Shown here piece by piece: positions 20,739 to 48,760 of a DNA stretch of 57,458 nucleotides (positions are counted from its first letter, which is position 1; each line of letters starts with the position of its first letter). The stretch lies in NCBI GenBank assembly GCA_903842945.1, contig CAIMNS010000100.1:1-57458 (forward strand), read 5' to 3'. Made by a program: the position numbers and the translations under genes. This DNA comes from an uncultured Burkholderiales bacterium. Lineage in GTDB: Bacteria; Pseudomonadota; Gammaproteobacteria; Burkholderiales; Burkholderiaceae_C. The notes under the pieces are model-generated. The model had not been told where the DNA came from, did no database searches, and worked only from the letters and a program-made list of their open reading frames with translations.

Positions 20739-21728
20739 ATGAAGACCATCAGAAGAGTTTTTTTTTGCAGCATCCTGTTCTTGTTGAGCACGGGTGCATT
20801 GTTTTGTGAATCGTCCAAGGCTCAATCTTACCCCTCCAAGACCATCAAAATCATTGTCAGCACCGCTGCAGGCGGTGCACCAGACGTGATTGCAAGGCGC
20901 ATTGCAGACAAACTCAAAAGCATTTTGCATCAAAGTGTCGTGGTGGAGAACAAGCCAGGTGCCACAGGCAACATCTCGGCCGTCATGGTTGCCAATTCAG
21001 CGGCAGATGGATACACCCTCCTTTATTACGACAGCCCCATTTGGGCCATCAATCCTCATTTGTATCAAAAGCTTCCCTACGATCCCTTCAAGGACTTGAT
21101 GCCAGTGGCTCAAACCCATTTGGCTCCTCTCTTTTTGGTCGTGCCAACTGCACTTCAAATCAACACGGTGGCACAGTTGATTGAATATGCGCGAAAAAAT
21201 CCAGGTAAGGTCTCTTACGCATCGGCGGGGATTGGTTCATCGCACCATTTAACCGCTGAACAATTTCGCTCTCTGGCCAACATCAACATCGTACACGTTC
21301 CTTACAAGGGGGGCGCGCCAGCTTCAGTGGCCTTGTCCGCCGGCGAGGTGGAGATGGGTTTCTTGAGTTACCCCTTGGCGGTGGCTGGTGTGCAATCGGG
21401 TAAAACCAAAATTTTGGGCATTGGCACCGCGCAACGCGCACCTTCATTTCCAGATATCCCCTCCATCGCTGAAAGTGGTTTACCTGGATTTGATATCTAC
21501 ACCACCCTTGGCTTTTTGGCCCCTGCAGGCACGCCTACTGATGTCGTTTTGAAATTAAGTGAAGCCATCTCATTGGCCATCCATGAGCCAGATATGAAAG
21601 AGCTGGTGACCTCCTACGGCATCAGTTTGGCTCCCAAAATATCACCCGCACAGTTTGGCGCAGTGATGCGAGCTGAGTTCGAGAAGTTCGGTCAGATTGT
21701 GAAATCTTCTGGCGCAAGAATGGACTGA
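20739..21728 (+). CDS. Bug/TctC family substrate-binding protein
   Basis: 329 aa; 'YPSKTIKIIVSTAAGGAPDVIARRIADKL...VVENKPGATGNISA'. Confidence 0.95.
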   Translation: MKTIRRVFFCSILFLLSTGALFCESSKAQSYPSKTIKIIVSTAAGGAPDVIARRIADKLKSILHQSVVVENKPGATGNISAVMVANSAADGYTLLYYDSPIWAINPHLYQKLPYDPFKDLMPVAQTHLAPLFLVVPTALQINTVAQLIEYARKNPGKVSYASAGIGSSHHLTAEQFRSLANINIVHVPYKGGAPASVALSAGEVEMGFLSYPLAVAGVQSGKTKILGIGTAQRAPSFPDIPSIAESGLPGFDIYTTLGFLAPAGTPTDVVLKLSEAISLAIHEPDMKELVTSYGISLAPKISPAQFGAVMRAEFEKFGQIVKSSGARMD

Positions 21729-21756
21729 ATTTAGATTTTGACATGAATGAAGATGA

Positions 21757-23232: not shown

Positions 23233-24194
23233 TCCATCGATACCATCGCCTGTTGTCTGGTCTCATCGCCTTGGTGTTGAGCTCTGTGGTCTTTGCGGCT
23301 GATTTTCCCAATCGACCGGTTCGGATCGTGGTGCCCTTTACTGCGGGCGGCACCTTGGATGTGACGGCCCGTGTCATTGCGGCGAAGCTACATGATCTTT
23401 GGGGACAAGCGGTCGTCATTGAAAACCGCGTGGGAGGCAATGGCGCCATTGGTGCAGACAATGTCGTCAGAAGCCAAGCCGATGGCCACACACTTTTGTA
23501 CAACGGCTCCTTGATTGTGGTCACGCAACAGTTGCAAAAGACGACATTTGACATGACCAAGGATTTGTTGCCTGTGGTTCAGCCCGTGGTGTATTGGCAC
23601 GTCTTGTGTGTGAGCTCCAAGTTGCCGGTGAACAACTTTGCAGAGTTGGTAGAACTTGCGAAAAAACAACCCGGTAAATTGAACTACGGCAGTGGTGGGC
23701 TCGGATCGAGTTTGCATCTTTATATGGAAAGACTCAAAAGCAATTTAAAAATTGATATTGCACATATCCCTTACAAAGGAAGTGCTCCCGCGACCCAAGC
23801 TTTGTTGGCTGGAGAGGTGGACATTGTCTTTGATACGACCTCTGCCATGCTGCCCTTGATCAAGGCTGGAAAAGTCAAACCCTTGGTGGTGACCGGCGAC
23901 AAAAGACTTGAGGTCTTGAGCAACATACCGACGTTGAGCAGCTACATACCCGGTATGGCCGAGGAGCCAGGTTGGCATGGTATTTTTGCACCAACGGGTA
24001 CACCTAAAGCCGTGGCGGACAAGATTGCCGCAGATGTGCGAACGGCTGTGATGTCGACGGAATTGTCTACAAAATTCAAAGAAATGGAGTTTCAACCCTC
24101 CGGTCTTTCTGGTGAAGCATTTGCAGATGTTGTCAAAAAAGACTTTGACAAGTGGAGCAAATTGATTCGTGAAAACAATATTCGCGGCGAATGA
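23229..24194 (+). CDS. Bug/TctC family substrate-binding protein
   Basis: 321 aa; 'FPNRPVRIVVPFTAGGTLDVTARVIAAKL'; ATGA-type overlap with upstream UbiD. Confidence 0.95.
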   Translation: MIHRYHRLLSGLIALVLSSVVFAADFPNRPVRIVVPFTAGGTLDVTARVIAAKLHDLWGQAVVIENRVGGNGAIGADNVVRSQADGHTLLYNGSLIVVTQQLQKTTFDMTKDLLPVVQPVVYWHVLCVSSKLPVNNFAELVELAKKQPGKLNYGSGGLGSSLHLYMERLKSNLKIDIAHIPYKGSAPATQALLAGEVDIVFDTTSAMLPLIKAGKVKPLVVTGDKRLEVLSNIPTLSSYIPGMAEEPGWHGIFAPTGTPKAVADKIAADVRTAVMSTELSTKFKEMEFQPSGLSGEAFADVVKKDFDKWSKLIRENNIRGE

Positions 24195-24229
24195 ACCCCT
24201 TTTTTAACCCTTGATCAATAGAGATTCAA

Positions 24230-25294
24230 ATGACAGATGACCATGTAACACACGCAAGAGAACACATGTTGGCGCGCTATACCATCAATGGCGTCAATGC
24301 GAGTGATTTCAAAGACGTGACCCATTCCATTGAGCATTGGGCGGATTGGTGTGACGCCTGGTCCAAGCGTGCTTTGGTGCATGAACTCATGGGTAAAGAG
24401 GCTCTTGCAAAGGGCAAATTCATCTCTGCTGCTGAGCACCTCACACGCGCAGCCGTGACCTACCACTTTGGTAAATACCTGTTTGTCAACGACATGGCTC
24501 AACACAAAGTGGCACATCAAAAGGCTGTTGAATGCCATACCTTGGCCTTGCCTCATATGAATCCTCCAGGCAGCAGAGTGTCTATTCCTTATGAGAACAC
24601 CCATTTGGTGGGCATCTTAAGAAGACCTCAGCAGGCAACTGGACCGAGTCCTGTGGTCATCATGACGATGGGTTTGGACTCGACCAAGGAAGAGTTGATT
24701 TTATTTGAGCAGTATTTTTTGGACCGAGGCATGGCGACTTTGGCCGTGGACGGCCCCGGCCAAGGTGAGGCGGAATACGATTTACCCATTCGATTCGATT
24801 ATGAAAACGTGGTGGGTCCGGTGATCGATTGGATTGAGAAAAACAAAGACTTGGATGCCAACAAGATTGGTTTATGGGGCATCAGTTTGGGGGGGTACTA
24901 CGGACCCAGGACGGTGGCCTTTGAGAAAAGAGTGAAAGCTTGTGTTTCCAATTGTGGTCCCTACCACTGGGGAAAGCTCTGGGACAAACTGCCTGAGCTC
25001 ACCAAAAAAGCATTCACCGTCAGAAGCCACTCTCAAACAGATCAAGAGGCCAGAGAGAAGGCCAATTTGTTGAGCTTAGAAGGTATCACGCACCAAATCA
25101 CTTGCCCCATCTACATTGTGGCAGGAGGCTTGGATCGTTTGTGCCCGCCTGAAGATGCCAAAAAACTCGCCTCTGAGGTGAGCGGTCCTGTGGAGCTGCT
25201 GGTCATTGAAGATGGCAACCATGTCGCCCACAACAGAGGGTATCGCTACAGGGCGCAGTCAGCCGATTGGATGGCTGAGCAGCTGGGCATTTGA
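24230..25294 (+). CDS. alpha/beta hydrolase (2,6-dihydropseudooxynicotine hydrolase/FrsA-like)
   Basis: 354 aa; 'MATLAVDGPGQGEAEYDLPIRFDYENVVGPVIDWIEKN', 'IGLWGISLGGYYGPR', 'EDGNHVAHN'. Confidence 0.85.
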   Translation: MTDDHVTHAREHMLARYTINGVNASDFKDVTHSIEHWADWCDAWSKRALVHELMGKEALAKGKFISAAEHLTRAAVTYHFGKYLFVNDMAQHKVAHQKAVECHTLALPHMNPPGSRVSIPYENTHLVGILRRPQQATGPSPVVIMTMGLDSTKEELILFEQYFLDRGMATLAVDGPGQGEAEYDLPIRFDYENVVGPVIDWIEKNKDLDANKIGLWGISLGGYYGPRTVAFEKRVKACVSNCGPYHWGKLWDKLPELTKKAFTVRSHSQTDQEAREKANLLSLEGITHQITCPIYIVAGGLDRLCPPEDAKKLASEVSGPVELLVIEDGNHVAHNRGYRYRAQSADWMAEQLGI

Positions 25295-25315
25295 TACCCA
25301 AAAAGCCATGACACG

Positions 25316-27652
25316 ATGAAAAATGCAAGTTCCGTAGCTCGGGTAGAGGACGATTTGCTCTTGAAGGGGCAGGGTCGTTTTGTGGACGACATTGAATTGG
25401 GTGGGATGCTGCATGCCTGCTTTGTCAGAAGTGCTGTGGCACATGCAAAAATCCTCTCCATTCACAAGGACGATGCGCAAGCCTTGTCTGGGGTATTTGG
25501 GATTTACGAGCACAAAGATTTGTGCTCGGTGATCAAAAAAGAACGCATCCCACAAGCGATTCAATCGGCCATGATCAACTTCGATGTGGATCCCTTTTGG
25601 CTGGCCAAGGAGGAGGTATGCTATGTGGGTGAGCCTTTTGCGGTGGTCTTGGCCGATTCTCGTCGAACGGCTGAAGACGCGGCAGCATTGGTCTACATGG
25701 AGTACGACAGTCTGCCCGTGGTGGTGGATCCAAGGCGAGGGCTTCACAAGAGTTCTCCCAAAGCACGGTTGGACTGCGAGAGTAATTTGGTCGCCCACGC
25801 TCGGGTCAATTATGGTGAAACCCAAAAAGCCTTTGAACAAGCGCCTCACCAAATGTCTCAGTTGTTCACGCTCAACAAAGGTGGCGGACACTCCATAGAG
25901 CCAAGAGGCGTGGTGGCGGTTTTTGATCAATTTGAAAAAAAACTAAAGGTATGGGACAGCACCCAAATGCCTCACCGTGCACGTGACTTGTTGGTGCAGT
26001 CCTTGGGGCTTGGCGAGCATCAAGTTCGGGTGATTGCACCCGATGTGGGTGGAGGCTTTGGACCCAAGGCCGTGATCCATCCTGAAGAAATCGTGATACC
26101 AGCTCTTGCAATCCTCTGCGGTCATCCGGTGAAATGGATCGAAGACCGATTGGAGTCCTTCAGTGCAACTGTCTTGGAGCGTTTGCAGTACTGGGACATG
26201 CACGTGGCCTTTGATCATCAGGGCAAACTCTTGGGCATCAGGGGTCATTTGTACCACGACCATGGTGCGTGCACACCCTATGGTGTGGCCTTGCCGTACA
26301 ACGCGGTCACGAATTTGGTAGGGCCCTATGTGTTGCCTGCCTTGGACATTGAAATTTCCTTGTGCTTGACCAACATGGTGCCTGCTACGCCCACACGAGG
26401 AGCGGGAAGACCTCAAGGCACGTTCGTGATGGAGCGGTTTTTGGACAAAATTGCCGATACTTTGAAGTTGGACCGTGCTGAGGTGAGAAGAAGAAACCTC
26501 ATACCCGCTGATGCCATGCCGTACACCGTTCCAATTTTGCAAAGAGATGGATCCGCCATGTGTTATGACACCGGTGACTATTTGGAATCACAAAAAAGGG
26601 CCCTTGAGGCCTTTGACTGGGTGGGCTTCAAGGAGCGCCAACGTGTTGCGCGTGGTTTGGGCAAGTTCATCGGTCTGGGCCTGGCCAATTATGTCGAGGC
26701 GACGGGCAGGGGACCTTTTGAGAGTGGCTCCGTTCGCATCGGTCCTTCTGGGCAAATCGTGGTGACCACTGGAGCGACTGCACAAGGTCAAGGTGTGAAG
26801 ACCATGTTGTCACAAATTGTGGCTGAGCAACTCTGTGTGCAAGCCCATGAAATTGAAGTGCAAGACGGCGATACCGACGCGAGCAGATTGGGTTTTGGGG
26901 CCTTTGCCTCCAGGCAAGCGGTGACCGCGGGCAATGCTGTTTTTCTGGCGGCTGGGTTGATCGCAGAAAAAATCAAATTGGCGGCCAGTGAATTTTTAGA
27001 AGTGTCCAAGGACGATTTGGAGTTCGATCAAGGCTTTGTCAAAGTCAAGGGGGCAGGCGAAATCAAAATGTCCTTTGCGCAAATTGCTAGGAAACTTGCC
27101 GGTGTGCCGGGTTTTGCTTTACCCAAAGGATTGAAACCTGGTTTGGCCGAATTTGTGGATTTTGAGCCTACGGGACTGACCTACACCAACGGGACCCACT
27201 TGGCTGAGGTTGAGGTGGATGTGGAAACGGGTGGGGTTGTGATCCATCGTTACTTGGTCATGCACGACTGTGGTCGCATCATCAATCAAATGATGGTGGA
27301 TGGACAGGTCTTGGGTGGCGTTGTCCATGGCATTGGTGCCACGCTCTTTGAGTGGATGCGCTATGACGAAGAGGGGCAGCCTTTGACGGCCACCTATGCC
27401 GACTATTTGTTGCCCACGGCAGATGTGGTGCCCAGAATTGAAATCATGCACATGGAGTCTCCTACGCCCCTCAATCCTATGGGCGTCAAGGGCGCAGCCG
27501 AGAGTGGCACGATTGGTGCGCCCTCAGCGATCGTGTCAGCCATTGATGATGCCCTGTCCGATTTCAAGCTTGACTTGTGTGATTTGCCCATCACCCCAGC
27601 TAAATTACAGGCCATGATTTCTAAGGCGCATCATCTCAACCTCAGCCATTGA
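25316..27652 (+). CDS. xanthine dehydrogenase/CoxL-type molybdopterin-binding large subunit
   Basis: 778 aa; 'APDVGGGFGPKAVIHPEEI', 'TPTRGAGRPQGTFVMERFLDKIA', 'MGVKGAAESGTIGAPSAIVSAIDDAL'. Confidence 0.93.
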   Translation: MKNASSVARVEDDLLLKGQGRFVDDIELGGMLHACFVRSAVAHAKILSIHKDDAQALSGVFGIYEHKDLCSVIKKERIPQAIQSAMINFDVDPFWLAKEEVCYVGEPFAVVLADSRRTAEDAAALVYMEYDSLPVVVDPRRGLHKSSPKARLDCESNLVAHARVNYGETQKAFEQAPHQMSQLFTLNKGGGHSIEPRGVVAVFDQFEKKLKVWDSTQMPHRARDLLVQSLGLGEHQVRVIAPDVGGGFGPKAVIHPEEIVIPALAILCGHPVKWIEDRLESFSATVLERLQYWDMHVAFDHQGKLLGIRGHLYHDHGACTPYGVALPYNAVTNLVGPYVLPALDIEISLCLTNMVPATPTRGAGRPQGTFVMERFLDKIADTLKLDRAEVRRRNLIPADAMPYTVPILQRDGSAMCYDTGDYLESQKRALEAFDWVGFKERQRVARGLGKFIGLGLANYVEATGRGPFESGSVRIGPSGQIVVTTGATAQGQGVKTMLSQIVAEQLCVQAHEIEVQDGDTDASRLGFGAFASRQAVTAGNAVFLAAGLIAEKIKLAASEFLEVSKDDLEFDQGFVKVKGAGEIKMSFAQIARKLAGVPGFALPKGLKPGLAEFVDFEPTGLTYTNGTHLAEVEVDVETGGVVIHRYLVMHDCGRIINQMMVDGQVLGGVVHGIGATLFEWMRYDEEGQPLTATYADYLLPTADVVPRIEIMHMESPTPLNPMGVKGAAESGTIGAPSAIVSAIDDALSDFKLDLCDLPITPAKLQAMISKAHHLNLSH

Positions 27653-27685
27653 TGCTGAACCCATGAACGAATCATTGAGAACATC

Positions 27686-28561
27686 TTGAAAGCTGCAAAT
27701 TTTGACTACCACGCACCCAGCACACTGGATGAGGCCTTGGCGTTGTTGTCCCATCTTGAAAACGCCAGAGTGCTAGCCGGTGGTCAGTCCTTGATGCCCA
27801 TGCTCAATTTAAGGTTGGGGGGCTTTGATCATTTGATTGATTTAGGTCGAGTTGCTGAATTGAGTGCCATCGAAAAAGTCTCAGGAGCCTACAAAATCGG
27901 GGCCATGGTCAGGCAAAGAGAGATTGAAAAATTTTCTGGTTTTGAAAAAGAAGTGCCCCTCTTGTACCAAGCGATACGTTATGTAGGACACCAACAAACG
28001 AGAAACCGGGGCACCATTGGCGGGAGCATTTGTCATTTGGATCCCTCCGCTGAGTTGCCACTGGTGGCCTTGACGATGGACGCCAGACTAGAGGTGGCCA
28101 GTACAAGGGGCAGAAGACAAATTGAATTCAAGGATTTTTTCTCAAGTCTTCTCAGTTCGGTGCTCACCGCGGACGAAATCTTGACGCGGATTTACATGCC
28201 GTTTTCTCATGCGAAAGACTGTTGTGTCTTCCTGGAGTTTTCAAGAAGGCCCGCTGACTTCTCTATTTCATCGGTGGCTGTGGTGTTGCGACTCGATGCG
28301 CAAGAAAAAATAGAACAATTGAAAATAGGTATTGGCGGACTGGGCCCCACCGCTGTTCGTTTGTACCAGCTAGAGGAAAAATACAAAGGTGAAGCTTGGT
28401 CTGAGAGCATCCTTGATGACATCCTTTCGCAGATCAAAACATTGCCAGGTGAAGGGGACTTGGACAACACGGCCGCCTACCGCAATGTGCTGGCACAAGT
28501 GCTGGTCAAACGCGCTTTGACCCAGGCCCTTCAAATGAACAAGGAGCCCGTCCATGGCTAA
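27686..28561 (+). CDS. FAD-binding medium subunit (CoxM-like) of Mo-hydroxylase
   Basis: 291 aa; 'ARVLAGGQSLMPMLNLRLGGFDHLIDLGRV', 'HQQTRNRGTIGGSICHLDPSAELPLV'; TTG start. Confidence 0.93.
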   Translation: MKAANFDYHAPSTLDEALALLSHLENARVLAGGQSLMPMLNLRLGGFDHLIDLGRVAELSAIEKVSGAYKIGAMVRQREIEKFSGFEKEVPLLYQAIRYVGHQQTRNRGTIGGSICHLDPSAELPLVALTMDARLEVASTRGRRQIEFKDFFSSLLSSVLTADEILTRIYMPFSHAKDCCVFLEFSRRPADFSISSVAVVLRLDAQEKIEQLKIGIGGLGPTAVRLYQLEEKYKGEAWSESILDDILSQIKTLPGEGDLDNTAAYRNVLAQVLVKRALTQALQMNKEPVHG

Positions 28562-29051
28562 GCATCTCATCGAATTAACGGTCAATGATCAACGCCATTC
28601 AAGAACTGTCGACAGCGCATTGAACTTGGTGGATTTTTTGAGAAATGAAATTGGATTAAAAGGCACGCACATTGGGTGCGAGCATGGGGTATGCGGTGCA
28701 TGTACGGTGTTGGTGGATCAAAAGACGGTGCGTGGTTGTTTGATGTTGGCGGTTCAAGCCAATGGTCAGCATGTTCAAACCATCGAGTCCATTGCCAATG
28801 CAGATGGATCTTTGTCAGAGATTCAAATCAAAATGAAAGAACACCATGGATTGCAATGCGGGTTTTGCACCCCTGGTGTGGTGATGACCATCAAGGAATT
28901 GATGGCAGAGAGCAAAGGGCACGTCTTGAGTGAGGAGCAAGTCAGGGCCGCTTTATCAGGTAACCTGTGTCGATGTACAGGGTATCAAGGCATGGTAGAT
29001 GCGGCCCTGGACTTGATCAATCACCAAGCCAGTGAAGCAGTGAAGCAGTGA
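28554..29051 (+). CDS. (2Fe-2S)-binding small subunit (CoxS-like) of Mo-hydroxylase
   Basis: 165 aa; 'GCEHGVCGACTVLVDQKTVRGC', 'LQCGFCTPGVVM...NLCRCTGYQGMVDA'. Confidence 0.95.
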   Translation: MAKHLIELTVNDQRHSRTVDSALNLVDFLRNEIGLKGTHIGCEHGVCGACTVLVDQKTVRGCLMLAVQANGQHVQTIESIANADGSLSEIQIKMKEHHGLQCGFCTPGVVMTIKELMAESKGHVLSEEQVRAALSGNLCRCTGYQGMVDAALDLINHQASEAVKQ

Positions 29052-29078
29052 AGATGGTTATCCAATGAAAGCACGACG

Positions 29079-30044
29079 ATGAAATACTTTTTACAAATCG
29101 GTTTACTTTTAGCAGGACTTGTTTGTTCAGCATTTGCTCAGGACTATCCCAGTCGTCCTGTCAAGGTGATCGTGACCTACCCGCCAGGTGGGGGCGCTGA
29201 CGTGACAGCGCGTATCGTAGGTCAAAGGCTCTCAGAGCTATGGAAACAACCTGTGCTCATTGAAAACAAGCCAGGAGGTGGTGGTAATGTAGGGGCGGAC
29301 TTCGTCTACCATGCACAAGCCGATGGATACACTTTGCTCTTGGTCTCAGCTTCCCAAGTTGGCAATGCAGCGCTTTTGGAGAAGACCACCTTTGATCTGG
29401 TCAGTGACTTTGCCCCGATTGGATTGGTCAGTTCCTCCCCAATTGTGATCGCCGTCAACAACCGGGTCAAAGCCAACACCTTCAAAGAGTTCATTGCTCT
29501 TTTGAAATCAGAGGCAGGTAAGATGGATTACGCCAGTTGCGGTATTGCCACGACGCATCACTTTGCCATGGAGTTGCTCAAGTATCAAACCGGCACCAAG
29601 GCGCAACACATTCCCTATAAGTGCGCCTCTGCTGTCAACGATTTGCTCGGTAATCAGTTGGATGTGATTGCGGTGACCTTGCCTCCAGCACTACCTTTTA
29701 TTCAGCAAGGCAAAATGCGAGCTTTGGCGGTCACCAGCGCAAAGCGTTCCCCCAATGCCCCAAGCATCCCAACGGTGAGCGAGTCTGGTATGGCTGAGCT
29801 CAAGGATTACGCGGTCGAAAATTATTATGGTTTGGTCGCGCACGCGGGGACTTTCAAAGCTTTGATGAAAAAGCTGGAGGCCGATATCAAGGCCGTTTCA
29901 CTCGATCCTGCCATTCAAAATAAATTGGCTGGCGCAGGGTTGGATACGTTTTACAAGACGCCTGAGCAGACCTTGTCCTTGCTATCAAGCGATATCGATT
30001 TTTATAAAAAAATGTCCAAAATAGCCAATATCAAACAAGAATAA
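29079..30044 (+). CDS. Bug/TctC family substrate-binding protein
   Basis: 321 aa; 'YPSRPVKVIVTYPPGGGADVTARIVGQRL...IENKPGGGGNVGADFV'. Confidence 0.95.
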   Translation: MKYFLQIGLLLAGLVCSAFAQDYPSRPVKVIVTYPPGGGADVTARIVGQRLSELWKQPVLIENKPGGGGNVGADFVYHAQADGYTLLLVSASQVGNAALLEKTTFDLVSDFAPIGLVSSSPIVIAVNNRVKANTFKEFIALLKSEAGKMDYASCGIATTHHFAMELLKYQTGTKAQHIPYKCASAVNDLLGNQLDVIAVTLPPALPFIQQGKMRALAVTSAKRSPNAPSIPTVSESGMAELKDYAVENYYGLVAHAGTFKALMKKLEADIKAVSLDPAIQNKLAGAGLDTFYKTPEQTLSLLSSDIDFYKKMSKIANIKQE

Positions 30045-30078
30045 GAACTCAGCTAGGACACGCTCAATCAACTTTTTC

Positions 30079-31092
30079 ATGGATCAAAAAAAACCTATGT
30101 TTAAAAGCTCTCTTCAGATCAAGACTTGTTCTTGGCTCATGCTTTTTTTGATGTCTGGTGCATGGATGTGCAGTGGGTATGCACAATCCCTTGCGTCTGC
30201 CTATCCGAACAAAGCTGTAAAGTTGATCATCCCAAGTCCTCCTGGAGGGGGAACGGATGTGTTGGCGCGAATGATCGCTACCAAGCTCAGTGAAAAATGG
30301 TCCCAGCCTGTGGTGGTGGAGAGCCGAGCGGGGGCTGGAGGTAACATTGCCGCAGAATTTGTTTACAAGGCACCTCCTGATGGCTACACCTTGATGTTGG
30401 CTCATCCAGCACCTCTGGTCATCAACAAAACGCTGTACTCAAAAATCACCTATGACCCCGAACAGTTTACTCCCATCACCGTGGTGGCATCTGTGCCGAA
30501 CGTGCTGGTGACCAAAGCAGGCGGATCGATACAAAATTTACAGCAACTGATCAATGCGGCAAAAGCAGCGCCGGATAAATTGAACTATGCATCAGGAGCT
30601 ATTGGCTCCCCCTCCTCACTGACCCCTGATTTGTTCAAGTACATGACCGGTGTGAAGATCGTTGGGATTCCTTTTCAAGGCAGTGCGCCGGCCTTGATGG
30701 CCCTTTTGGGTGCTCAAGTTGACATGTTGTTTGTCGAGCTGAGTACAGCCTTACCGCATATTCGTTCTGGAAAGCTAAAAGCCATCGCTGTGGCCAGTGA
30801 AAAAAGAAGTTCCTTGTTGCCAGAAACGCCAACTCTTGCTGAAACCCTGCCGGGTTTCAGCGCAGCTGTTTGGTTCGGTATTGTCGGTCCTCCAAAACTG
30901 GCTTCATCAATTGCCGACATGTGGGCGCACGCTGTGGCAGAGACCTTGAGAATGCCAGACGTTGCCAAACAACTGGCTGAGTTGAGCATGGAGCCCGTTG
31001 CAAGCACGCCCTTGGAATTGGCACAGTACATGCAAGACGAGAGCAAGCGCTGGAGTTCGGTGATCAAAATGAGTGGTTCGAAAGTCGATTGA
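30079..31092 (+). CDS. Bug/TctC family substrate-binding protein
   Basis: 337 aa; 'YPNKAVKLIIPSPPGGGTDVLARMIATKL...VVESRAGAGGNIAAEFV'. Confidence 0.95.
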   Translation: MDQKKPMFKSSLQIKTCSWLMLFLMSGAWMCSGYAQSLASAYPNKAVKLIIPSPPGGGTDVLARMIATKLSEKWSQPVVVESRAGAGGNIAAEFVYKAPPDGYTLMLAHPAPLVINKTLYSKITYDPEQFTPITVVASVPNVLVTKAGGSIQNLQQLINAAKAAPDKLNYASGAIGSPSSLTPDLFKYMTGVKIVGIPFQGSAPALMALLGAQVDMLFVELSTALPHIRSGKLKAIAVASEKRSSLLPETPTLAETLPGFSAAVWFGIVGPPKLASSIADMWAHAVAETLRMPDVAKQLAELSMEPVASTPLELAQYMQDESKRWSSVIKMSGSKVD

Positions 31093-31122
31093 CCTTAAGA
31101 ACTGCTGTTCAAAATTTAAATC

Positions 31123-32814
31123 ATGACACGTGTAAAACCTTCTCACAAGACCCGGATTGCTTGTTGTCAAATTTCATTGGTTCCCGATGAGAATTTAAAT
31201 TTGATCCAATGTTTGAACATGATTGATCAAGCCAGCAGTGTGGGGCCTGATTTGATCGTCTTGCCTGAGATGTCGAATTGGTCTGCAGGTTTGGTCAAGT
31301 CTAAGTCTGATGCACTCGCTCATGGTGTGACGATGCAGGGGCCGTTTTTGTCTGCCATCGCTGAGAAAGCAAGAGCGCATGGTTGTTTCATTGCCATTGG
31401 CGTGATTGAGCGCTTGGAAGAAGAGACGTTCATCACCAGTGTCATCATCTCAGCAGAAAAAAAGATCGTTCTTAAATACCAAAAGCAAATACCCTTTGGG
31501 CCTCAAATTGCATGGGCCACTCCAGGGCGCACTGGCAACCCCGTGGTTCAATTGCCTTTTGCTCGGGTGGGTCTTTATATTTGTGCAGATGGCTTGATCC
31601 CAGAGACGACACGTGTGCTTGCATTGAGTGGCGCTCAATTGCTGATCAACACCTTGCATTCTGGAGGATCGGATGAAACGCATTTGCACGTCCCTGCTCG
31701 TGCTTATGAAAACCAGGTTTGGATCGCCAGTGCGAACAAAGTCGGTCAAAGAGATCTGGGCGCTTTGGATCGTTTCAGCGGTGGCAGTCAAATTGTCTCT
31801 CCCCGTGGCGACGTGGTCGCCCGAGCCGATGCTTTGAACGACTCGTTTGTATGGGCCGATGTGGACTTCAATGACCCAGAGTTTTTGCCAGTCAAGGAAA
31901 ATAAACTCTTTAAACTCAGGCGTCCTGAGTGCTATGCAGATCTTTTGAAAAAGCCAAGCTACCCATCGGGCACCCATCAGAGCAAAGGGCCAGCCTCTCT
32001 TGGCGTGGCGGTGCTTCAGCCCAAAGGCTTTGGTACCGAAGCTTTGCATGCTGCCCTTCAAGAGTGCGCTCAGGTGGTGCTGGAAAAAGGTGCCAGGCTG
32101 GTGGTGTTGCCGCAATTGATCATGCATGACCTAAAGGCACAAGATTTCGACCCCGTCAATGCAGCGCTCCTGGACATCAAAGCCCTTCAAGAGGTCCAAG
32201 CAACCGCACGAAAGACCTCCTGTTGGATGGTCTTCTCATCCATCAAAGTCAGTGCCCGACACGCTACAAAATATGACCTTTGTATGGATTTGATTGATCC
32301 TACAGGTGCTGTTCATGGAACACAAATTCAAATTCATGTGTCAGAACAGACGCGTCATTGGGCATGTGAAGGCTCTGAATTCAAGGTGTTTCAAACACCC
32401 ATCGGTCGTATCGGACTCTTAGGTGGCTTGGATGCTCAGATCTTGGAGTCTTTTAGAGTCTTGACCTATTTGGGTGTTCAAGTGGTGTGTGTGAGTGGAT
32501 CCATTGAAAATGACAAGGAAGTGGACTTGGGCCTGAGGGAGAGGGTGGCTGAAAACAGAGTTCACATCATGTTTGCCAGTCGAAGTGATGCACCATGCAC
32601 CAAAGGGTCGGTGATCGTTCAAGCGAGTGCTTACCCCAGTGAGCCGCATTGGAGGGTGCGTTTCCCGGATGTGCTCTGTATCAAATCGGATGAAACGCAA
32701 TTGTGTGCAAGTTTGGATCTCTTGGCGACCAATGACAAAACCGTGGCAGCTCTAGGCTGTGATTTGCTCTTGAGTCCCCTGCACGATCAATATCAAAGCC
32801 TGCATCAACACTGA
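31123..32814 (+). CDS. carbon-nitrogen hydrolase (nitrilase superfamily), tandem-domain protein with catalytically degenerate C-terminal half
   Basis: 563 aa; N-half has LPEMS / KYQKQIPFG / LYICADGLIPE (E-K-C); C-half 'GVAVLQPKGF...VVLPQLIMHD...IGRIGLLGGLDAQILESFRVL' lacks E and C. Confidence 0.85.
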   Translation: MTRVKPSHKTRIACCQISLVPDENLNLIQCLNMIDQASSVGPDLIVLPEMSNWSAGLVKSKSDALAHGVTMQGPFLSAIAEKARAHGCFIAIGVIERLEEETFITSVIISAEKKIVLKYQKQIPFGPQIAWATPGRTGNPVVQLPFARVGLYICADGLIPETTRVLALSGAQLLINTLHSGGSDETHLHVPARAYENQVWIASANKVGQRDLGALDRFSGGSQIVSPRGDVVARADALNDSFVWADVDFNDPEFLPVKENKLFKLRRPECYADLLKKPSYPSGTHQSKGPASLGVAVLQPKGFGTEALHAALQECAQVVLEKGARLVVLPQLIMHDLKAQDFDPVNAALLDIKALQEVQATARKTSCWMVFSSIKVSARHATKYDLCMDLIDPTGAVHGTQIQIHVSEQTRHWACEGSEFKVFQTPIGRIGLLGGLDAQILESFRVLTYLGVQVVCVSGSIENDKEVDLGLRERVAENRVHIMFASRSDAPCTKGSVIVQASAYPSEPHWRVRFPDVLCIKSDETQLCASLDLLATNDKTVAALGCDLLLSPLHDQYQSLHQH

Positions 32815-32875
32815 GGGTCATTGGCCTGGTCGTTTGAGCTGGAATTGAATGTAGGTATGATTTTTTAACTGGAGT

Positions 32876-33580
32876 TTGGGTTTGATAAATAAGCAAATAG
32901 ACAGTTGTGATCAAGCAGTCGAAGGTGTCTTTGATGGCGCTAGCATCATGCTTGGTGGATTTGGTAACGCTGGGATGCCGGGTCAATTGATCGATGCACT
33001 TCGACGAAAGGCAGTCAAAAACTTAACGATCATCAGCAATGGAGCGGGAACGGGGCCATTTGCTTTGGGCGCTCTTTTTGCTGAGGGGTTGGCCAGAAAA
33101 CTCATCGCCTCTTATCCTGCGCCAACAGCTACAGGGTTTAGAGATCTTTACTTAAAAGGGGAAGTCGAGTTGGAGTTGGTCCCGCAGGGCAGTTTGGTTG
33201 AACGTATCCGTTGCGGCGGCAATGGATTGGGTGGCTTTTATACCCCAACCGGTGCGGGAACAGAATTGGCGCACGGCAAGGAGACTCGAACCATGAATGG
33301 TCGCGAACATGTGCTCGAACTCGCTTTAAGAGCAGATTTTGTTTTCTTGAAAGCCCACTTGGGAGACCGTTTTGGAAACCTGTCTTACAGAGGCACCATG
33401 CGCAATTTCAACATGGTCATGGCCAGTGCGGGTGACAGAGTCTTTGCTGAGGTGGACCACTTGGTTCCAGCTGGGGACATCCAGCCAGACAATGTTCACA
33501 CCCCAGGTATTTTTGTGGATCACGTGATTGAGGTCGCTCGGCTGCCTAAATTATTAGAGCTTCCAAAGGAGGGTTCATGA
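32876..33580 (+). CDS. CoA-transferase subunit A (3-oxoacid CoA-transferase family I)
   Basis: 234 aa; 'ASIMLGGFGNAGMPGQLIDAL', 'LTIISNGAGTG', 'VELELVPQGSLVERIRCGGNGLGGFYTPTGAGTE'; TTG start. Confidence 0.92.
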   Translation: MGLINKQIDSCDQAVEGVFDGASIMLGGFGNAGMPGQLIDALRRKAVKNLTIISNGAGTGPFALGALFAEGLARKLIASYPAPTATGFRDLYLKGEVELELVPQGSLVERIRCGGNGLGGFYTPTGAGTELAHGKETRTMNGREHVLELALRADFVFLKAHLGDRFGNLSYRGTMRNFNMVMASAGDRVFAEVDHLVPAGDIQPDNVHTPGIFVDHVIEVARLPKLLELPKEGS

Positions 33581-34278
33581 TGGGAAATTTGTCTAGAGAT
33601 GGTATTGCATGGAGAATTGCAAGGGATTTGCATGAGGGAAGTTATGTCAATTTGGGGGTAGGCATACCCGTCTTGGTCTCTAACTATTTGGACCCAAATC
33701 AGGAAATCTTTTTGCACAGTGAAAACGGTATTTTGGGCGTGGGCCCCAAACCTGACAAGGAGAGCCTTGATTTGGACTTGATCAGCGCTGGCAAGGGTTT
33801 TTGTACCCTTGCGCTGGGGGCCAGTTTGTTTGATCAACAAATCTCTTTTACCATGATGCGAGGTGGACACTTGACGCATGCCATTTTGGGAGCCCTTGAG
33901 GTGGCTGAAAATGGAGACTTTGCCAATTGGAAAGTCCCGGGTGAGGCTGTCCCTGGCGTAGGTGGCGCGATGGATTTGGCCATAGGATCCCCCAATATTT
34001 ATGTGGCCATGACCCATGTGAGCAACAAAGGTCAACCTAAGATCGTTCGCCGCTGTGCAGCTCCTCTAACAGCCCAACAGTGTGTGAAGAGAATTTACAG
34101 TGATATTGCTGTGATCGACTTGACACCGCAAGGTTTGGTTCTGATGGAGTACATGCCGGGTTTTGATCCTGTCAAAATTCAATCGATGACAGAGGCGTCC
34201 TTGAGGGTGTCAGAGCATTGTCGCGAAATGGTCATTCCTCAAACGGCTTCCAATGGGGCCAAGTTGTATCAATCTTAA
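33577..34278 (+). CDS. CoA-transferase subunit B
   Basis: 233 aa; 'SYVNLGVGIPVLVSNYL', catalytic-Glu motif 'HSENGILGVGP'; overlaps subunit A. Confidence 0.93.
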   Translation: MMGNLSRDGIAWRIARDLHEGSYVNLGVGIPVLVSNYLDPNQEIFLHSENGILGVGPKPDKESLDLDLISAGKGFCTLALGASLFDQQISFTMMRGGHLTHAILGALEVAENGDFANWKVPGEAVPGVGGAMDLAIGSPNIYVAMTHVSNKGQPKIVRRCAAPLTAQQCVKRIYSDIAVIDLTPQGLVLMEYMPGFDPVKIQSMTEASLRVSEHCREMVIPQTASNGAKLYQS

Positions 34279-34293
34279 ATTTCAAGGCGAAAC

Positions 34294-34815
34294 GTGAGTA
34301 AATCTGATATTCCACTGAACGATGCTGAAGTTCAAAACATCAAAAAAATCATCTCTACATTCAATGATTCAAGTCTGAATTATTTGGATCTTGAGTTGGG
34401 AGACTTAAAAATAAAAATTGGCAAGGGCAACTTGCCAACTCAACCCACGGTGCTGTCGCCAAGTGCTGCGGCCCCTGAAGCTTCATCTTTGCAAGTGCCA
34501 CCCTTTCAAGCGCCAAATGGCTCACTTTCGTCGCGAGCCACTGTGCTTGATGAAGCGCTCAGCTTGGGTCCCGATGAGGTCCACATCAAATCGCCCTTGG
34601 TGGGTCGTTATTACTCGCAGGCTGAGCCTGGGGCAAAAAAGTATGTGGAATTAGGCACCCTTGTGCTGGCGGATACGACGGTGGCCTTGATTGAGGCCAT
34701 GAAAATGTTCAACGCAGTTCCTTCAGGCGTGCAGGGGCATGTTTCTAAAATTTGCGTGACCGATGGTGAGTTGGTTGAGTATGGCCAGATCTTGTTTCAT
34801 GTCAAAGTGAAATAG
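34294..34815 (+). CDS. accB: biotin carboxyl carrier protein (AccB-like)
   Basis: 173 aa; 'IKSPLVGRYYSQAEPGAKKYVELGTLV...LIEAMKMFNAVPSGVQGHV' biotinyl-lysine motif; GTG start. Confidence 0.9.
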   Translation: MSKSDIPLNDAEVQNIKKIISTFNDSSLNYLDLELGDLKIKIGKGNLPTQPTVLSPSAAAPEASSLQVPPFQAPNGSLSSRATVLDEALSLGPDEVHIKSPLVGRYYSQAEPGAKKYVELGTLVLADTTVALIEAMKMFNAVPSGVQGHVSKICVTDGELVEYGQILFHVKVK

Positions 34816-34860
34816 AGTTGTCTGAATTGACCCAAGTGTTTTAACCCGCGAGTATGATTT

Positions 34861-36264
34861 TTGACCATGGCTCAAGCTATTGATACTGTGACTTTCAAGC
34901 GAATTTTGATTGCCAACCGAGGTGAAATTGCTGTTCGCATTGTTCACGCTTGTCGAGCCCTAGGTATTGAGTCGGTCTTGGTCGTGTCCGAGGCCGATCG
35001 AACGACATTGGGCGCCCAAATGGCAGACAAGGTGGTGTGCATTGGTCCTGCAAGTTCAAGTGAAAGTTACTTGAAGATCTCAGCGCTGATGGCCGTTGCA
35101 ACTGGCACGCAATGTCAGGCCTTGCATCCGGGCTATGGCTTTTTGGCTGAATCCGAAGACTTGGCCTTGGCGTGTGAAGAGGAGGGCATTGTTTTTATTG
35201 GTCCCACCTCAAGCCAAATTTTAAGCATGGGCAATAAATTGCAAGCTAGGGCGCTTGCCAAGTTAGCCAAGGTGCCTATGCTCAACGGCTCAGAAAAGGT
35301 GATAGACGCCCATCATGCCTTGGTTTTGGCTGAGAACATTGGATTTCCCGTGATGCTCAAAGCGGCAGCTGGCGGTGGTGGCAAGGGCATGAAGATTGTC
35401 CGCTCGGCAGAACAAATGCCAAGTCTTTTTAGCTCTGCTAGCGCAGAGTCCAGATCTGCTTTTGGGGACGACACCCTTTATTTGGAGAAATACATCTCCA
35501 ACGCCAGGCACGTTGAAGTTCAAGTGCTTGGGGATCACCATGGTCAATTGATTCATTTGGGAGAGAGAGACTGCTCGCTTCAAAGACGGCATCAAAAGGT
35601 GGTTGAAGAGTCTCCTGCGCCAGCTTTGACTCAAACCGTTCGCGATCAAATTCGAACAGCTGCCTTGAAGTTGGCCAAGGCCATTGAATACAGAAACGCG
35701 GGTACCGTTGAATTCATCTTGGATGGAGACACATCGAAATTTTATTTTTTGGAGATGAACACCAGAATTCAGGTGGAGCATCCCGTGTCTGAAACCGTGT
35801 CTGGCATCGATTTGGTGGAGGAGCAAATTCGCATTGCCAGCGGTCAAGCTTTGAGGTTTAGGCAAGAGGATGTTATTTTTAGAGGCCATGCCATTGAATG
35901 CCGCATCAATGCGGAAGTACCCTCTGAGGGCTTTCGACCCAGTCCGGGCTTGATCACCAAATGGACGCCTCCAACAGGACCCAATATTCGTTTGGATACC
36001 CACTGTTTTGTGGGATACCGAGTTCCCATTGATTACGACTCGATGTTGGCCAAATTGATCGTCTATGGCGTGGACCGTTTGGACGCCATCAGACGGCTCA
36101 AGCACGCACTTGATTATTTTGAAATTGAGGGGATTGGTACGACCTTGCCCTTCATCAAATTTGCCATCACACATCCCAGTTTCATCAGTGGGGAGGTCAA
36201 CACGGTCTTGGTTGACCAGATGATTGAAGAGATGGCGCTGATCGATCGCAAAGGATTGGTTTGA
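34861..36264 (+). CDS. accC: biotin carboxylase (AccC-like)
   Basis: 467 aa; 'RILIANRGEIAVRIVHACRALGI', 'KAAAGGGGKGMKIV', 'FYFLEMNTRIQVEHPVSE'. Confidence 0.95.
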   Translation: MTMAQAIDTVTFKRILIANRGEIAVRIVHACRALGIESVLVVSEADRTTLGAQMADKVVCIGPASSSESYLKISALMAVATGTQCQALHPGYGFLAESEDLALACEEEGIVFIGPTSSQILSMGNKLQARALAKLAKVPMLNGSEKVIDAHHALVLAENIGFPVMLKAAAGGGGKGMKIVRSAEQMPSLFSSASAESRSAFGDDTLYLEKYISNARHVEVQVLGDHHGQLIHLGERDCSLQRRHQKVVEESPAPALTQTVRDQIRTAALKLAKAIEYRNAGTVEFILDGDTSKFYFLEMNTRIQVEHPVSETVSGIDLVEEQIRIASGQALRFRQEDVIFRGHAIECRINAEVPSEGFRPSPGLITKWTPPTGPNIRLDTHCFVGYRVPIDYDSMLAKLIVYGVDRLDAIRRLKHALDYFEIEGIGTTLPFIKFAITHPSFISGEVNTVLVDQMIEEMALIDRKGLV

Positions 36265-36285
36265 AATTGCATTGAGGATTATTGA

Positions 36286-37737
36286 ATGAATAAAATTGAA
36301 CTCGTTGACGTCACACTCAGAGACGGTCATCAAAGTCTTTGGGCTGAGAGGATGACCACTGGCATGATGATGCCGATCATAGGGCGCTTGGATCGAGCAG
36401 GATTCAACGCCTTGGAGGTTTTGTCGCCGTCTTTCATTGGCAAGTGCGTGAGAGATTTGTCCGAGGACCCTTTTCAAAGGATGCGCTTGTTGCATCAAAA
36501 GGGTGGCAAGACCCCTTTGCGCGTCAATGCGGGGGGCTTGAATGTGTTTGGTACCGACCAACCGGCGATGCTTGATTTGTTTTGGCGCATCATGGCTGAG
36601 ACTGGCATTCAAGAGGTGCGGGTGTCGGATTCTTGGAACGATCCAAAAGTATGGAAATTAAGAGCGGGCTCTGCTAGCAAAGCGGGTGTCAAACCGATCA
36701 TCAACATCACCTACTCGATTTCTCCTAAACACACAACCGATTACTATGTGCAAAAAACCAAAGAAGCGCTCAAATTAAAGCCCTTTAGAATTTGTTTGAA
36801 GGACCCAGGTGGTCTATTGACGCCGGAGCGAACGCGTGAATTGGTGCCCTTGATGTTAAAGCTTGCCAAGGATACGCCACTTGAGTTGCATACCCATTGC
36901 TCCACAGGTCTAGGGCCCTTGTGTGTCATTGAGGCGGTGAAGTTGGGTGTGACAATCATCAACACATCCATTCCTCCCTTGGCCGATGATGCTTCATTGC
37001 CGTCGGTCTTCAATGTGATATCCAATTTACGGGTCTTAGGCTATCAAGTGGATGTGGATGACACGAGCCTGCATCCCATTCGAGAGCATTTTGAAAAAAT
37101 TGCCCTGAGAGAGAATTTTCCTGTGGGCCGACCCGTAGAATTTGATAGCGCACAATACATCCACCAAGTCCCAGGTGGCATGATCTCCAACCTAAGAAAT
37201 CAACTCAAGGAAGTGGGTGCTGAGGACAAGTTGCCTTTGGCGCTTGAAGAGGCGGTTCAAGTGAGGGCGGACTTTGGTTATCCCATCATGGTGACTCCTT
37301 TGTCGCAATTTGTGGGCAGCCAAGCAGCGGTGAACGTGATGAGGGGCAAGCGTTATGAGCAAGTCACCGATCAGTCGATTCGATTTGCCTTGGGTCATTT
37401 TGGTGGGAATGTGGCCCATGACATGAACCCAGACGTGAGAGAGAAAATCTTGAACAGTCCCAGGGCGAAAGAGTTGTCGCGGTCGAGCTTTCAAGAGTTG
37501 TCCTTGAGTGAGTTGAGGAAAAACTTGGATGCGCAATCTTTGTCAGACGAGGATTTTTTACTGAGCTACTTGATGAGAAAAGAGGACATTCAAAAGATGC
37601 GATCAAAGGGCACGCATGTCGAACTTTATCAAACTGAGGGCTTGAGTTTGTCCGAGTTGATCAAGGACCTCTCCAGTGTGGCCAAGGGCAACATGATCCA
37701 TATCTCAAAGGATGGTTTTAACTTAACAATGGGTTAA
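36286..37737 (+). CDS. carboxyltransferase of the pyruvate carboxylase/OadA/transcarboxylase-5S family
   Basis: 483 aa; 'VDVTLRDGHQSLWAERMTTGMM', 'ICLKDPGGLLTPERT', 'LELHTHCSTGLG'; no C-terminal biotinyl domain. Confidence 0.92.
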   Translation: MNKIELVDVTLRDGHQSLWAERMTTGMMMPIIGRLDRAGFNALEVLSPSFIGKCVRDLSEDPFQRMRLLHQKGGKTPLRVNAGGLNVFGTDQPAMLDLFWRIMAETGIQEVRVSDSWNDPKVWKLRAGSASKAGVKPIINITYSISPKHTTDYYVQKTKEALKLKPFRICLKDPGGLLTPERTRELVPLMLKLAKDTPLELHTHCSTGLGPLCVIEAVKLGVTIINTSIPPLADDASLPSVFNVISNLRVLGYQVDVDDTSLHPIREHFEKIALRENFPVGRPVEFDSAQYIHQVPGGMISNLRNQLKEVGAEDKLPLALEEAVQVRADFGYPIMVTPLSQFVGSQAAVNVMRGKRYEQVTDQSIRFALGHFGGNVAHDMNPDVREKILNSPRAKELSRSSFQELSLSELRKNLDAQSLSDEDFLLSYLMRKEDIQKMRSKGTHVELYQTEGLSLSELIKDLSSVAKGNMIHISKDGFNLTMG

Positions 37738-37756
37738 GGCTTTTTGTATTCAAAAC

Positions 37757-38920
37757 GTGGGGTTCAAGACGGTGAATATTTATTCTTCTTTAGCGATTGC
37801 TGGTGTGGGCGAGGCCGATCTTTTTGTAGATCGAGTGAGGTCAGCCAAAGATTTGGCCGTAGAGGCTGCACTCAAAGCCATGGACGATGCGGGCATCACA
37901 AGTCATGACGTTGACGGCGTGATCACTGCCAGTCCTGCGGCAGATCCGCATTTTGTTTTTTCATCCTTGGTGGGTGAGGCCTTGAACATCAATGCTCGCC
38001 TGAGTACCGCCTTGCAAAATGCCGGTGCATCTCCTATGCTGGGTGTGATGTACGCGGCAAGAGCGATTGCCAGTGGGGAAGCACACACGGTGCTTGTGTG
38101 TGAGAGTGACTCTCGAGGCGCTAAATTCAAGGGCGATAAGATCCAAGCCATGCGAGCGGCAAGGCCTTGGAGCGACGATTTTGAAGATCCATTTGGCCTA
38201 ACTGTGCCTGCTAAGTACGCACTCCTTGCACAGGCCTGGATGCATCGCCATGGCGCCAAGCCACAGGACTTGGCAGGCGTGGCGGTTGCAGCGCGAGAGC
38301 ATGGTAGGCGTCAGCCGAACGCTTTAAAAAAGGAGCCCTTGAGCATTGAAGCAGTTTTAAACTCTCCCATGATCGCATCTCCCCTTCGTGCACTGGACTG
38401 TTGTCCTGTATCCGACTGGGGCGGTGCGTTGATCGTTACAACTCTTGAGCGCGCCAAAGACATGAAGTCCAAGCCAGTGAGGATTTTAGGTGCTGGTGAG
38501 GGCCATAGCGCCTACCATTTGCATGAAACGCGGGACTTGCCATCCCTTGCTACACATTTGGGCGCCAAGCGAGCTTTTGAAATGGCTGGCCTTAAGCCCT
38601 CGGACGTTGATGTCGCGCAGGTGTTTGATGCGTTCTCCATTGCGGCGATTTTGGCCTTGGAGGAAATAGGTTTGTGCGAAAAAGGTGATGGCGCTTCTTA
38701 TTTTTCTTCTGGTAAGACCGCTTTAGGTGGGGTGTTGCCAACGAACACCACTGGGGGCATGATGACCTGGGGCAATGCGCATATCATTGTGCTGCCAGAG
38801 GCGGTCCGGCAGGCCAGAGGGGATGCGGGGATCAATCAGGTCAAAGACGCCAAGGTGAGCTTGGCGCATGGGATTGGTGGGCCGATGTCCTTGTCCAGTA
38901 CATTGCTTTTGGGTCAATGA
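37757..38920 (+). CDS. thiolase-fold (SCP-x/Ltp-like) protein, probable non-canonical active site
   Basis: 387 aa; 'LAIAGVGEADLF...SAKDLAVEAALKAMDDAGITSHDVDGVITASPA', 'DVAQVFDAFSIAAILALEEIGLCEKG', 'NTTGGMMTWGNAH'. GTG start at 37757 or 37772. Confidence 0.85.
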   Translation: MGFKTVNIYSSLAIAGVGEADLFVDRVRSAKDLAVEAALKAMDDAGITSHDVDGVITASPAADPHFVFSSLVGEALNINARLSTALQNAGASPMLGVMYAARAIASGEAHTVLVCESDSRGAKFKGDKIQAMRAARPWSDDFEDPFGLTVPAKYALLAQAWMHRHGAKPQDLAGVAVAAREHGRRQPNALKKEPLSIEAVLNSPMIASPLRALDCCPVSDWGGALIVTTLERAKDMKSKPVRILGAGEGHSAYHLHETRDLPSLATHLGAKRAFEMAGLKPSDVDVAQVFDAFSIAAILALEEIGLCEKGDGASYFSSGKTALGGVLPTNTTGGMMTWGNAHIIVLPEAVRQARGDAGINQVKDAKVSLAHGIGGPMSLSSTLLLGQ

Positions 38921-38930
38921 GGAGTTCAAG

Positions 38931-39341
38931 ATGAGTGAATTTAAAAAGCCACAGCCTTCACCCACGGCTTGGACCCAGTCCTTCTGGCAAAACTGCGCTA
39001 GCGAGCGTTTGATGCTTTTGAGGTGTTCAACTTGCAGCGCACACCATCTGCCAACTCGCAGGGTTTGTTCATGCGGCGCGATCAACTTTGACGCTGTGGA
39101 GTCGGTGGGCCTTGGAGAGATCATCTCTTACACGGAGGTTCACCGAGCGCCAGATCCTGCTTTCAAGGCCGAGTTGCCTTATGTCATTGCCATCATTGAA
39201 CTCCAAGAGGGCGTGCGCTTGATGAGCAACATCATTCAAAGTGAGGCGAAAGACCTAGGCATTGGAAAAAAAGTGCAATGTGTTTTCGAAACCTTGGATG
39301 AAACCCTTGGGGTGCCTAAATTCAAATTGATCAAGGATTAA
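38931..39341 (+). CDS. Zn-ribbon/OB-fold (DUF35) acyl-CoA-associated protein
   Basis: Start ATG 38931; 'LMLLRCSTCSAHHLPTRRVCSCG' Zn-ribbon; 'VGLGEIISYTEVHRAPDPAFKAELPYVIAIIELQEGVRLMSNI'. Confidence 0.92.
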   Translation: MSEFKKPQPSPTAWTQSFWQNCASERLMLLRCSTCSAHHLPTRRVCSCGAINFDAVESVGLGEIISYTEVHRAPDPAFKAELPYVIAIIELQEGVRLMSNIIQSEAKDLGIGKKVQCVFETLDETLGVPKFKLIKD

Positions 39342-39398
39342 AACTTCAAAAAGAAGGTTGGTAGTTAGGTGATACATAAAACTTAGAAAGGCTTTCAC

Positions 39399-40394
39399 AT
39401 GAGACACACATTTCGAACATTATTGAGTCCTAAAAACTTCAAGGTCTTGCTCTTTGGTGCATTTTGTTTCTATGGGGCCTTGCATGCGCAAATTGCTCCC
39501 TATCCCAATCGGCCTCTTACCATGGTCTTGCCATATGCAACGGGTGGGACGGTGGATATACAAGCGCGTTTACTGGCCTCAGGCCTGACTCAAAAATTAG
39601 GTCAACCTGTGATTGTTCGCAACATGCCAGGTGCGACTGGAGCGATTGCAACGGATTTTGTAGTTCATGCCGTGCCCGATGGATACACCTTGCTTTTTGC
39701 GTCTTCAGCACAAACAACCAGCGTACCTTTGACTGAAAAAGTCAACTACAAGCTGGAGGATTTGGCTCCCGTGAGCGCATCGGGTCGAGGCACCATGATT
39801 CTTGCTATCAACTCACAAGTGCCTGCAAAAAATTTGACCGAATTCATCGCTTATGGCAAAGCCAACCAAGGAAAAATCAGTTATGGCTCCTCGGGCACGG
39901 GTTCAGTGGGTCACCTGGTGGGCGCCTTGTTTGGAGCCAGGGCTGGGTTAGAAATTGTGCACATCCCCTATAAAGGCGGTGGTCCTGTGATGTCTGATTT
40001 GCTGGGCGGACAAATCCCTATGCTGTTTGGTAATTCTGCAGAGGTGATGGGCAGCTCAAAGAACCCAAGACTCAGAATCTTGGCGGTATCAAGCAAGGAG
40101 CGCATGAAGCAGTTGCCCGATACTCCTACGGTGTCTGAATTTTTACCCAATTTTGAGATGACGGCATGGCAAGGCACGCTGGCTCCTGTTAAAACACCTA
40201 GGGCCATCATTGACATCGTCTCCAATGCCATTCAAGAACTCTCCAAAGATCCTAAAGTCATTGAGACACTGGGGAGCTACGGTGTTGATGCGCTGACAAC
40301 TACGCCAGAGCAAATGGCGGCCATGATCAAAGGTGAGGTACCGGTTTACACAGAAGCGGTCAAAGCTGCAGGGTTGACAAAGCCGATCAATTGA
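39399..40394 (+). CDS. Bug/TctC family substrate-binding protein
   Basis: 331 aa; 'YPNRPLTMVLPYATGGTVDIQARLLASGL...VIVRNMPGATGAIATDFV'. Confidence 0.95.
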   Translation: MRHTFRTLLSPKNFKVLLFGAFCFYGALHAQIAPYPNRPLTMVLPYATGGTVDIQARLLASGLTQKLGQPVIVRNMPGATGAIATDFVVHAVPDGYTLLFASSAQTTSVPLTEKVNYKLEDLAPVSASGRGTMILAINSQVPAKNLTEFIAYGKANQGKISYGSSGTGSVGHLVGALFGARAGLEIVHIPYKGGGPVMSDLLGGQIPMLFGNSAEVMGSSKNPRLRILAVSSKERMKQLPDTPTVSEFLPNFEMTAWQGTLAPVKTPRAIIDIVSNAIQELSKDPKVIETLGSYGVDALTTTPEQMAAMIKGEVPVYTEAVKAAGLTKPIN

Positions 40395-48750: not shown

Positions 48751-48760
48751 GGTGGGTTCC

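Follow-up and report, generated by a model that had tools for sequence, protein, structure and literature searches.

Locus and domain architecture

The window, a stretch of 57,458 nucleotides covering positions 1 to 57,458 of contig CAIMNS010000100.1 from an uncultured Burkholderiales bacterium (GenBank assembly GCA_903842945.1), contains within a run of plus-strand genes an open reading frame for a tandem nitrilase-fold protein, at the N-terminus of which no signal peptide is obvious (Table 1). The coordinates of this frame and the five motifs quoted from its product in the original prediction proved exact, with LPEMS starting at residue 47, KYQKQIPFG at 118, LYICADG at 151, VVLPQLI at 327 and IGLLGGLDA at 430.

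Table 1. The tandem nitrilase gene, its domains and catalytic positions, and neighbouring genes in the window.
Feature	Position	Strand	Remarks
Tandem nitrilase-fold protein, 563 aa	31123..32814	+	Stop codon included
N-half, residues 1–283, CN_hydrolase with Glu-Lys-Cys	31123..31971	+	Best Pfam stretch 11–251
Glu49, catalytic acid/base position, N-half	31267..31269	+	E in 27 of 27 N-halves with sequence there
Lys121, catalytic lysine, N-half	31483..31485	+	K in 28 of 28 N-halves
Gln128 at second-glutamate (fourth catalytic) position, N-half	31504..31506	+	Q in 6 of 6 orthologs
Cys154, nucleophile, N-half	31582..31584	+	C in 27 of 28 N-halves
Linker, about residues 272–288	31936..31986	+	Variable in ortholog alignment
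C-half, residues 289–563, nitrilase-fold domain read as catalytically dead	31987..32811	+	
Gln331 at Glu position, C-half	32113..32115	+	Q/H/Y/Y/G/G in six orthologs
Gln403 at Lys position, C-half	32329..32331	+	Q in six of six orthologs
Pseudo-nucleophile elbow and next two helices, C-half, residues 413–488	32359..32586	+	Most N-half-like part
Gly435 at Cys position, C-half	32425..32427	+	Gly in 6 of 6 orthologs
TctC-type binding proteins	20739, 23229, 29079, 30079, 39399	+	
UbiD decarboxylase	21757	+	
C-C hydrolase	24230	+	Best solved match 2,6-dihydroxypseudooxynicotine hydrolase, E 7e-46
Molybdenum hydroxylase L/M/S, CO dehydrogenase/xanthine dehydrogenase family	25316–29051	+	
3-oxoacid CoA-transferase A/B	32876–34278	+	
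Biotin carrier, biotin carboxylase, PycB/OadA-like carboxyltransferase	34294–37737	+	
Thiolase and OB-fold partner	37757–39341	+	

Two stretches of the protein matched the Pfam family PF00795 (CN_hydrolase), the whole protein scoring 164.4 bits against a gathering cut-off of 23.2, and a six-frame Pfam search of the genome returned 135.6 bits at 31153–31875 and 31.7 bits at 32005–32499 (cut-off 23.2). When the halves were aligned with each other by BLAST, they proved homologous (E 4e-6; 33% over 76 aa), residues 131–206 pairing with 413–488. In searches against the PDB, the N-half found nitrilase-fold amidases (E 2e-21) and could be aligned over nearly its whole length with single-domain amidases of the same fold (Pyrococcus horikoshii PH0642 1j31/6ypa, 3ivz; N-carbamoylputrescine amidase 5h8i-l), with Glu, Lys and Cys in place. 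A profile built from six C-halves likewise matched nitrilase-superfamily chains (E 3e-14), including the PH0642 and N-carbamoylputrescine amidase structures, Gly standing where PH0642 has its catalytic Cys146 and Gln where it has its Lys. These amidases have one domain per chain and a second glutamate (in YRE), whereas the window protein has two domains fused and Gln128 instead.

An AlphaFold model of the C-half only, of moderate quality (pLDDT 57, pTM 0.66), found N-carbamoylputrescine amidase and other nitrilases as its best folds (best E 6e-9). The full-length model (pLDDT 69, pTM 0.54) also matched nitrilases in a structure search; it includes a low-confidence stretch at residues 255–289, spanning the linker, and is too weak for judging domain packing. 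Together, the Pfam score, the C-half profile and the matches of the C-half model rule out a second half of non-nitrilase fold. The predicted internal pseudoenzyme domain, maintained by the purifying selection described below, is supported. Scores for the NCBIfam equivalogs all fell below their cut-offs: 112.5 against 500 for the archaeal nitrilase, 103.3 against 410 for N-carbamoylputrescine amidase and 80.3 against 355 for deaminated glutathione amidase.

Orthologs 80% (L001), 71% (L002), 69% (L003), 52% (L004) and 51% (L005) identical to the window protein were recovered from five other metagenome-assembled genomes, and their intact frames, together with low dN/dS, rule out a pseudogene or an assembly artefact. 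The gene order around the nitrilase gene is kept in L001–L003 to the contig ends, except that L001 is without the thiolase and OB-fold genes, while L004 and L005 lie among genes for class I fumarase, acyl-CoA synthetase and TctC proteins. The combination of molybdenum hydroxylase, UbiD decarboxylase, C-C hydrolase and CoA-transferase suggests an amidase step in the breakdown of an N-heteroaromatic acid, and the context fits an amidase freeing a dicarboxylic acid from a half-amide after ring cleavage of such an acid; a search for the pathway by gene content found none.

The window also holds a second catabolic block at 43137–57335, apparently parallel to that at 20739–40394, in which, by gene names read from translations, there are two more UbiD-like decarboxylases, a UbiX-like flavin prenyltransferase, another CO dehydrogenase-like molybdenum hydroxylase, a CoxG-like protein, and enoyl-CoA hydratase-like and alpha/beta hydrolase-like genes. 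Six TctC-type (Bug) genes, namely the five in Table 1 and one at 46114, stand singly among the catabolic genes and encode proteins that are not close copies of one another, with roughly 30–39% identity in cross-matches.

Catalytic positions in the two halves

To the six orthologs (the window protein and L001–L005) we added 22 further tandem proteins from order-, family-, class- and phylum-level genomes and from plasmids, giving 28 in all. N-halves, C-halves and single-domain relatives were placed in a joint alignment, in which E49 shares a column with Q331, K121 with Q403 and C154 with G435.

The Glu-Lys-Cys set predicted for the N-half occupies these homologous columns; all three residues are invariant across the six orthologs, and the single-domain nitrilase relatives have Glu, Lys and Cys in 46/46 cases each. 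The N-half thus carries the triad, but not the second glutamate of the CEEK tetrad found in most members, the site of Gln128 being occupied by E (16) or D (6) in the other 22 tandem N-halves and by E (37), D (8) or V (1) in the 46 single-domain relatives. Since the triad defines the nitrilase superfamily, Gln128 weakens confidence in ordinary activity and not in fold membership. The original description of the N-half as active, judged on its residues, accordingly holds for the triad but not for the fourth catalytic position.

The second glutamate sets the position of both substrate and catalytic lysine, and some members cannot do without it (PMC6946656); its placement acts as the switch of beta-ureidopropionase (PMC10741476). 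Work cited in the former source reports an amidase inactivated by mutation of this residue, which, taken with Gln128, counts against the reading favoured below. With Gln128 in that place, the N-half is only probably an ordinary hydrolase, and the residue could mean unusual chemistry. An N-half with altered chemistry (acyl transfer, or a carboxylate-bearing substrate), or a composite site drawn from both halves, would account for a Gln128 that is invariant in six orthologs where nearly all other relatives have E or D, and would sit well with the essential role described for the second glutamate in some members (PMC6946656). We nevertheless think it improbable: the N-half is strongly conserved around all of its invariant Glu49, Lys121 and Cys154, and the natural occurrence of Asp at the second-glutamate site points to tolerance of change there. 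An ordinary hydrolase remains our preferred reading of the N-half.

The C-half has the nitrilase fold without the triad, having Q331, Q403 and G435 in place of Glu, Lys and Cys. A Gln at the Glu position, in VVLPQLI, and the lack of Cys in IGLLGGLDA had both been predicted and were upheld. The further claim that no matching Lys motif is visible needs correction: the loop itself is still recognisable as GTQIQIHV, with Gln replacing Lys. Across the 28 tandems the Lys site of the C-half is Q in 14 and K in 14 and nothing else, and the nucleophile site is never Cys (0/28), being Gly in 24 and Asn, Thr, Asp and Ala in one each; in many tandems Glu and Lys are kept and Cys alone is lost. Nor did the window protein have an intact triad at shifted positions, with no Cys near the site and both K and E replaced. 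By its residues, the C-half is read as catalytically dead.

The C-half might instead have a different activity of its own through other residues, for example a Cys at residue 434, immediately preceding the old site, as found in four of the six orthologs (L002–L005), and purifying selection on this half would be in keeping with that. We consider this highly improbable, given that residue 434 is Gly in the window protein and L001 and I, L, S, T or N in the remaining tandems, and that the C-half Lys and Glu are gone too. The shifted Cys of L002–L005 was rejected as a substitute nucleophile, as it is not conserved among tandems.

Spread, ancestry and selection of the tandem nitrilases

If the family is defined by two CN_hydrolase domains, a Cys in the N-half and a residue other than Cys at the nucleophile position of the C-half, it takes in 27 of the 28 tandems, including the window protein. 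The exception, L068 (genome G1475), has no nucleophile Cys in either half ('LLSGQQS', 'MLTADDA') and is possibly a fully dead tandem. All 28 proteins are encoded by full-length open frames. Their hosts belong to the Pseudomonadota, including Alpha- and Gammaproteobacteria, plus one Bacillota plasmid (L054), and a phylum-wide search gave a full-length match in about 11 of 399 genomes. A Pfam scan of ten genomes, which were chosen for holding a member and do not form an unbiased census, found a Cys-less C-half in each ORF with two CN_hydrolase matches. The search for the same architecture thus uncovered a family trait that the original prediction had missed.

In the open-access literature we found no relevant report of a described tandem or dead-half nitrilase family; members are already in public databases, under generic names. 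Uncharacterised proteins of ~555–640 aa annotated as 'nitrilase-related carbon-nitrogen hydrolase', from Klebsiella and Raoultella plasmids, Agrobacterium, Rhizobium, Novosphingobium and Priestia, share the two-domain layout with a dead C-half and are homologous to the window protein across both halves (roughly 24–30% identity). They differ from it in context (nitrile hydratase, urea-type ABC transporters), in the C-half Glu and Lys that many of them have, and in having E or D at the second-glutamate site of the N-half. More generally, distant tandems adjoin nitrile hydratase, urea-type ABC transporters, acetamidase/formamidase or allophanate hydrolase. On a Klebsiella pneumoniae plasmid (L050, 5965–13031), a tandem member accompanied by ABC transporters, nitrile hydratase and an isochorismatase-family hydrolase is a natural candidate for an amidase acting after nitrile hydratase. 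Two tandems of genome G229 (L039, 4633–6504; L087, 491–2341) have Asn at the C-half nucleophile site and, with their signal-peptide-like N-termini, look exported, unlike other tandems.

In the phylogenetic tree, the C-halves formed one clade (support 99/95; present in all 200 bootstrap trees), so the dead half is old and common to the family. The N-halves fell mostly into one clade, with weak support (65/20), and their sub-clades match those of the C-halves. This pattern is as expected if there was one tandem ancestor in which the C-half was already dead. The C-half tree requires about three changes between Lys and Gln and about four losses of Glu, and the likely order of loss would begin with Cys, followed by Lys (in every case to Gln) and finally Glu. 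That the Lys site has repeatedly changed to one and the same residue suggests that it retains a structural or binding role.

Nei-Gojobori dN/dS for close pairs was about 0.12–0.17 in the C-half and 0.10–0.13 in the N-half; being well below 1, these values show that the dead half is maintained by purifying selection. Of the two halves, the C-half diverges the faster, with C/N conservation of 0.56–0.78 in the first third of the domain, where the Glu site lies, 0.8 in the 'RAxEN' helix, 0.96–0.99 over the pseudo-nucleophile strand and the helix that follows, and 1.07 in the Lys loop. Nearly all neighbouring genes diverge more slowly than this one does as a whole (window versus L003: 69%, against 72% for BCCP and 78–94% for the others). 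Both of these faster rates are what a C-half decaying towards loss might display, yet such decay is very unlikely in view of the low dN/dS, the intact frames of all 28 tandems and a single old origin followed by retention.

Proposed role of the dead half

The reading that we favour, at a probability of about 0.6, is that the window protein works in the cytoplasm as a nitrilase-superfamily hydrolase, most likely as an amidase, and has its dimer partner built into its own chain; we infer its activity, its packing and its substrate. In the N-half (Glu49, Lys121, Cys154), Cys would attack a small amide, ammonia would leave and the acyl-enzyme would be hydrolysed to the acid. In the C-half, derived from an old duplication or fusion, loss of the nucleophile (Cys to Gly) would have come early and that of Lys and Glu later. 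The domain would have been retained as a covalently attached pseudo-dimer partner, packing on the N-half via the A-surface usual for the superfamily and keeping the active-site loops in place, which leaves a single working site per alpha-beta-beta-alpha pair. The substrate, at a guess made from gene context alone, might be something like the half-amide of an unsaturated dicarboxylic acid, produced by ring cleavage in an N-heteroaromatic carboxylic acid pathway.

A covalent pseudo-dimer is the simplest interpretation because both halves lie in one chain and the pseudo-nucleophile stretch and next helix are the best preserved in the dead half; in nitrilases, the A-surface is formed by the helices that follow the nucleophile. 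It is also the best reading in that functional members of the superfamily are described as dimers: all those known have a dimer as their base, with monomers joined at the A-surface (PMC4700190), and subunit packing stabilises a catalytic loop Glu (PMC10741476). An intramolecular dimer-partner role for the C-half, one of two roles put forward in the original prediction (the other being that of a ligand sensor), is likely but unproven. The faster evolution of the gene relative to nearly all its neighbours counts against it, as does the well-conserved C-half Lys loop, for which a pure scaffold would have no use.

That loop, as conserved in C-halves as in N-halves, also argues for a C-half that serves as a ligand-sensing or regulatory domain, its old pocket binding the substrate, the product or a pathway metabolite and tuning the N-half. 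So do the restriction of the Lys site to Lys or Gln (14:14), with some three changes on the tree always to the same residue, the retention of Glu and Lys with loss of only Cys in many tandems, and the precedent of beta-ureidopropionase, which is regulated via ligand-linked assembly (PMC10741476). We regard this as unlikely all the same: within the window's own clade the Glu site is free to vary (Q/H/Y/G), the Glu-bearing first third is the least conserved part of the C-half, and the ligand is hypothetical, none being known. A shade more doubtful is the wider proposal that dead halves are retained ligand-binding pseudo-active sites that control the live half, a homodimer having turned into an intramolecular allosteric enzyme; the independent Lys-to-Gln repeats and the conserved Lys loop would then be the trace of that allosteric function.

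Nitrilase domains are fused to another domain in NAD synthetase, NitFhit and Lnt, where the fusion partner is not known to be a second, dead nitrilase domain. Pairs of an active copy and a dead paralog are described for AdoMet decarboxylase and its prozyme (PMC6221367) and for receptor phosphatase D1/D2 (PMC7320164); their folds are other than nitrilase, and the prozyme is a separate chain.

Enzymes of the nitrilase superfamily are described as dimers or larger assemblies. The catalytic contribution of a partner is hard to test in homodimers, where both sites change at once, and a natural single-chain pair of live and dead halves in a widespread family would allow that contribution to be tested directly. 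Generic 'carbon-nitrogen hydrolase' annotations conceal this two-domain family, the second half of which should not be counted as an enzyme.
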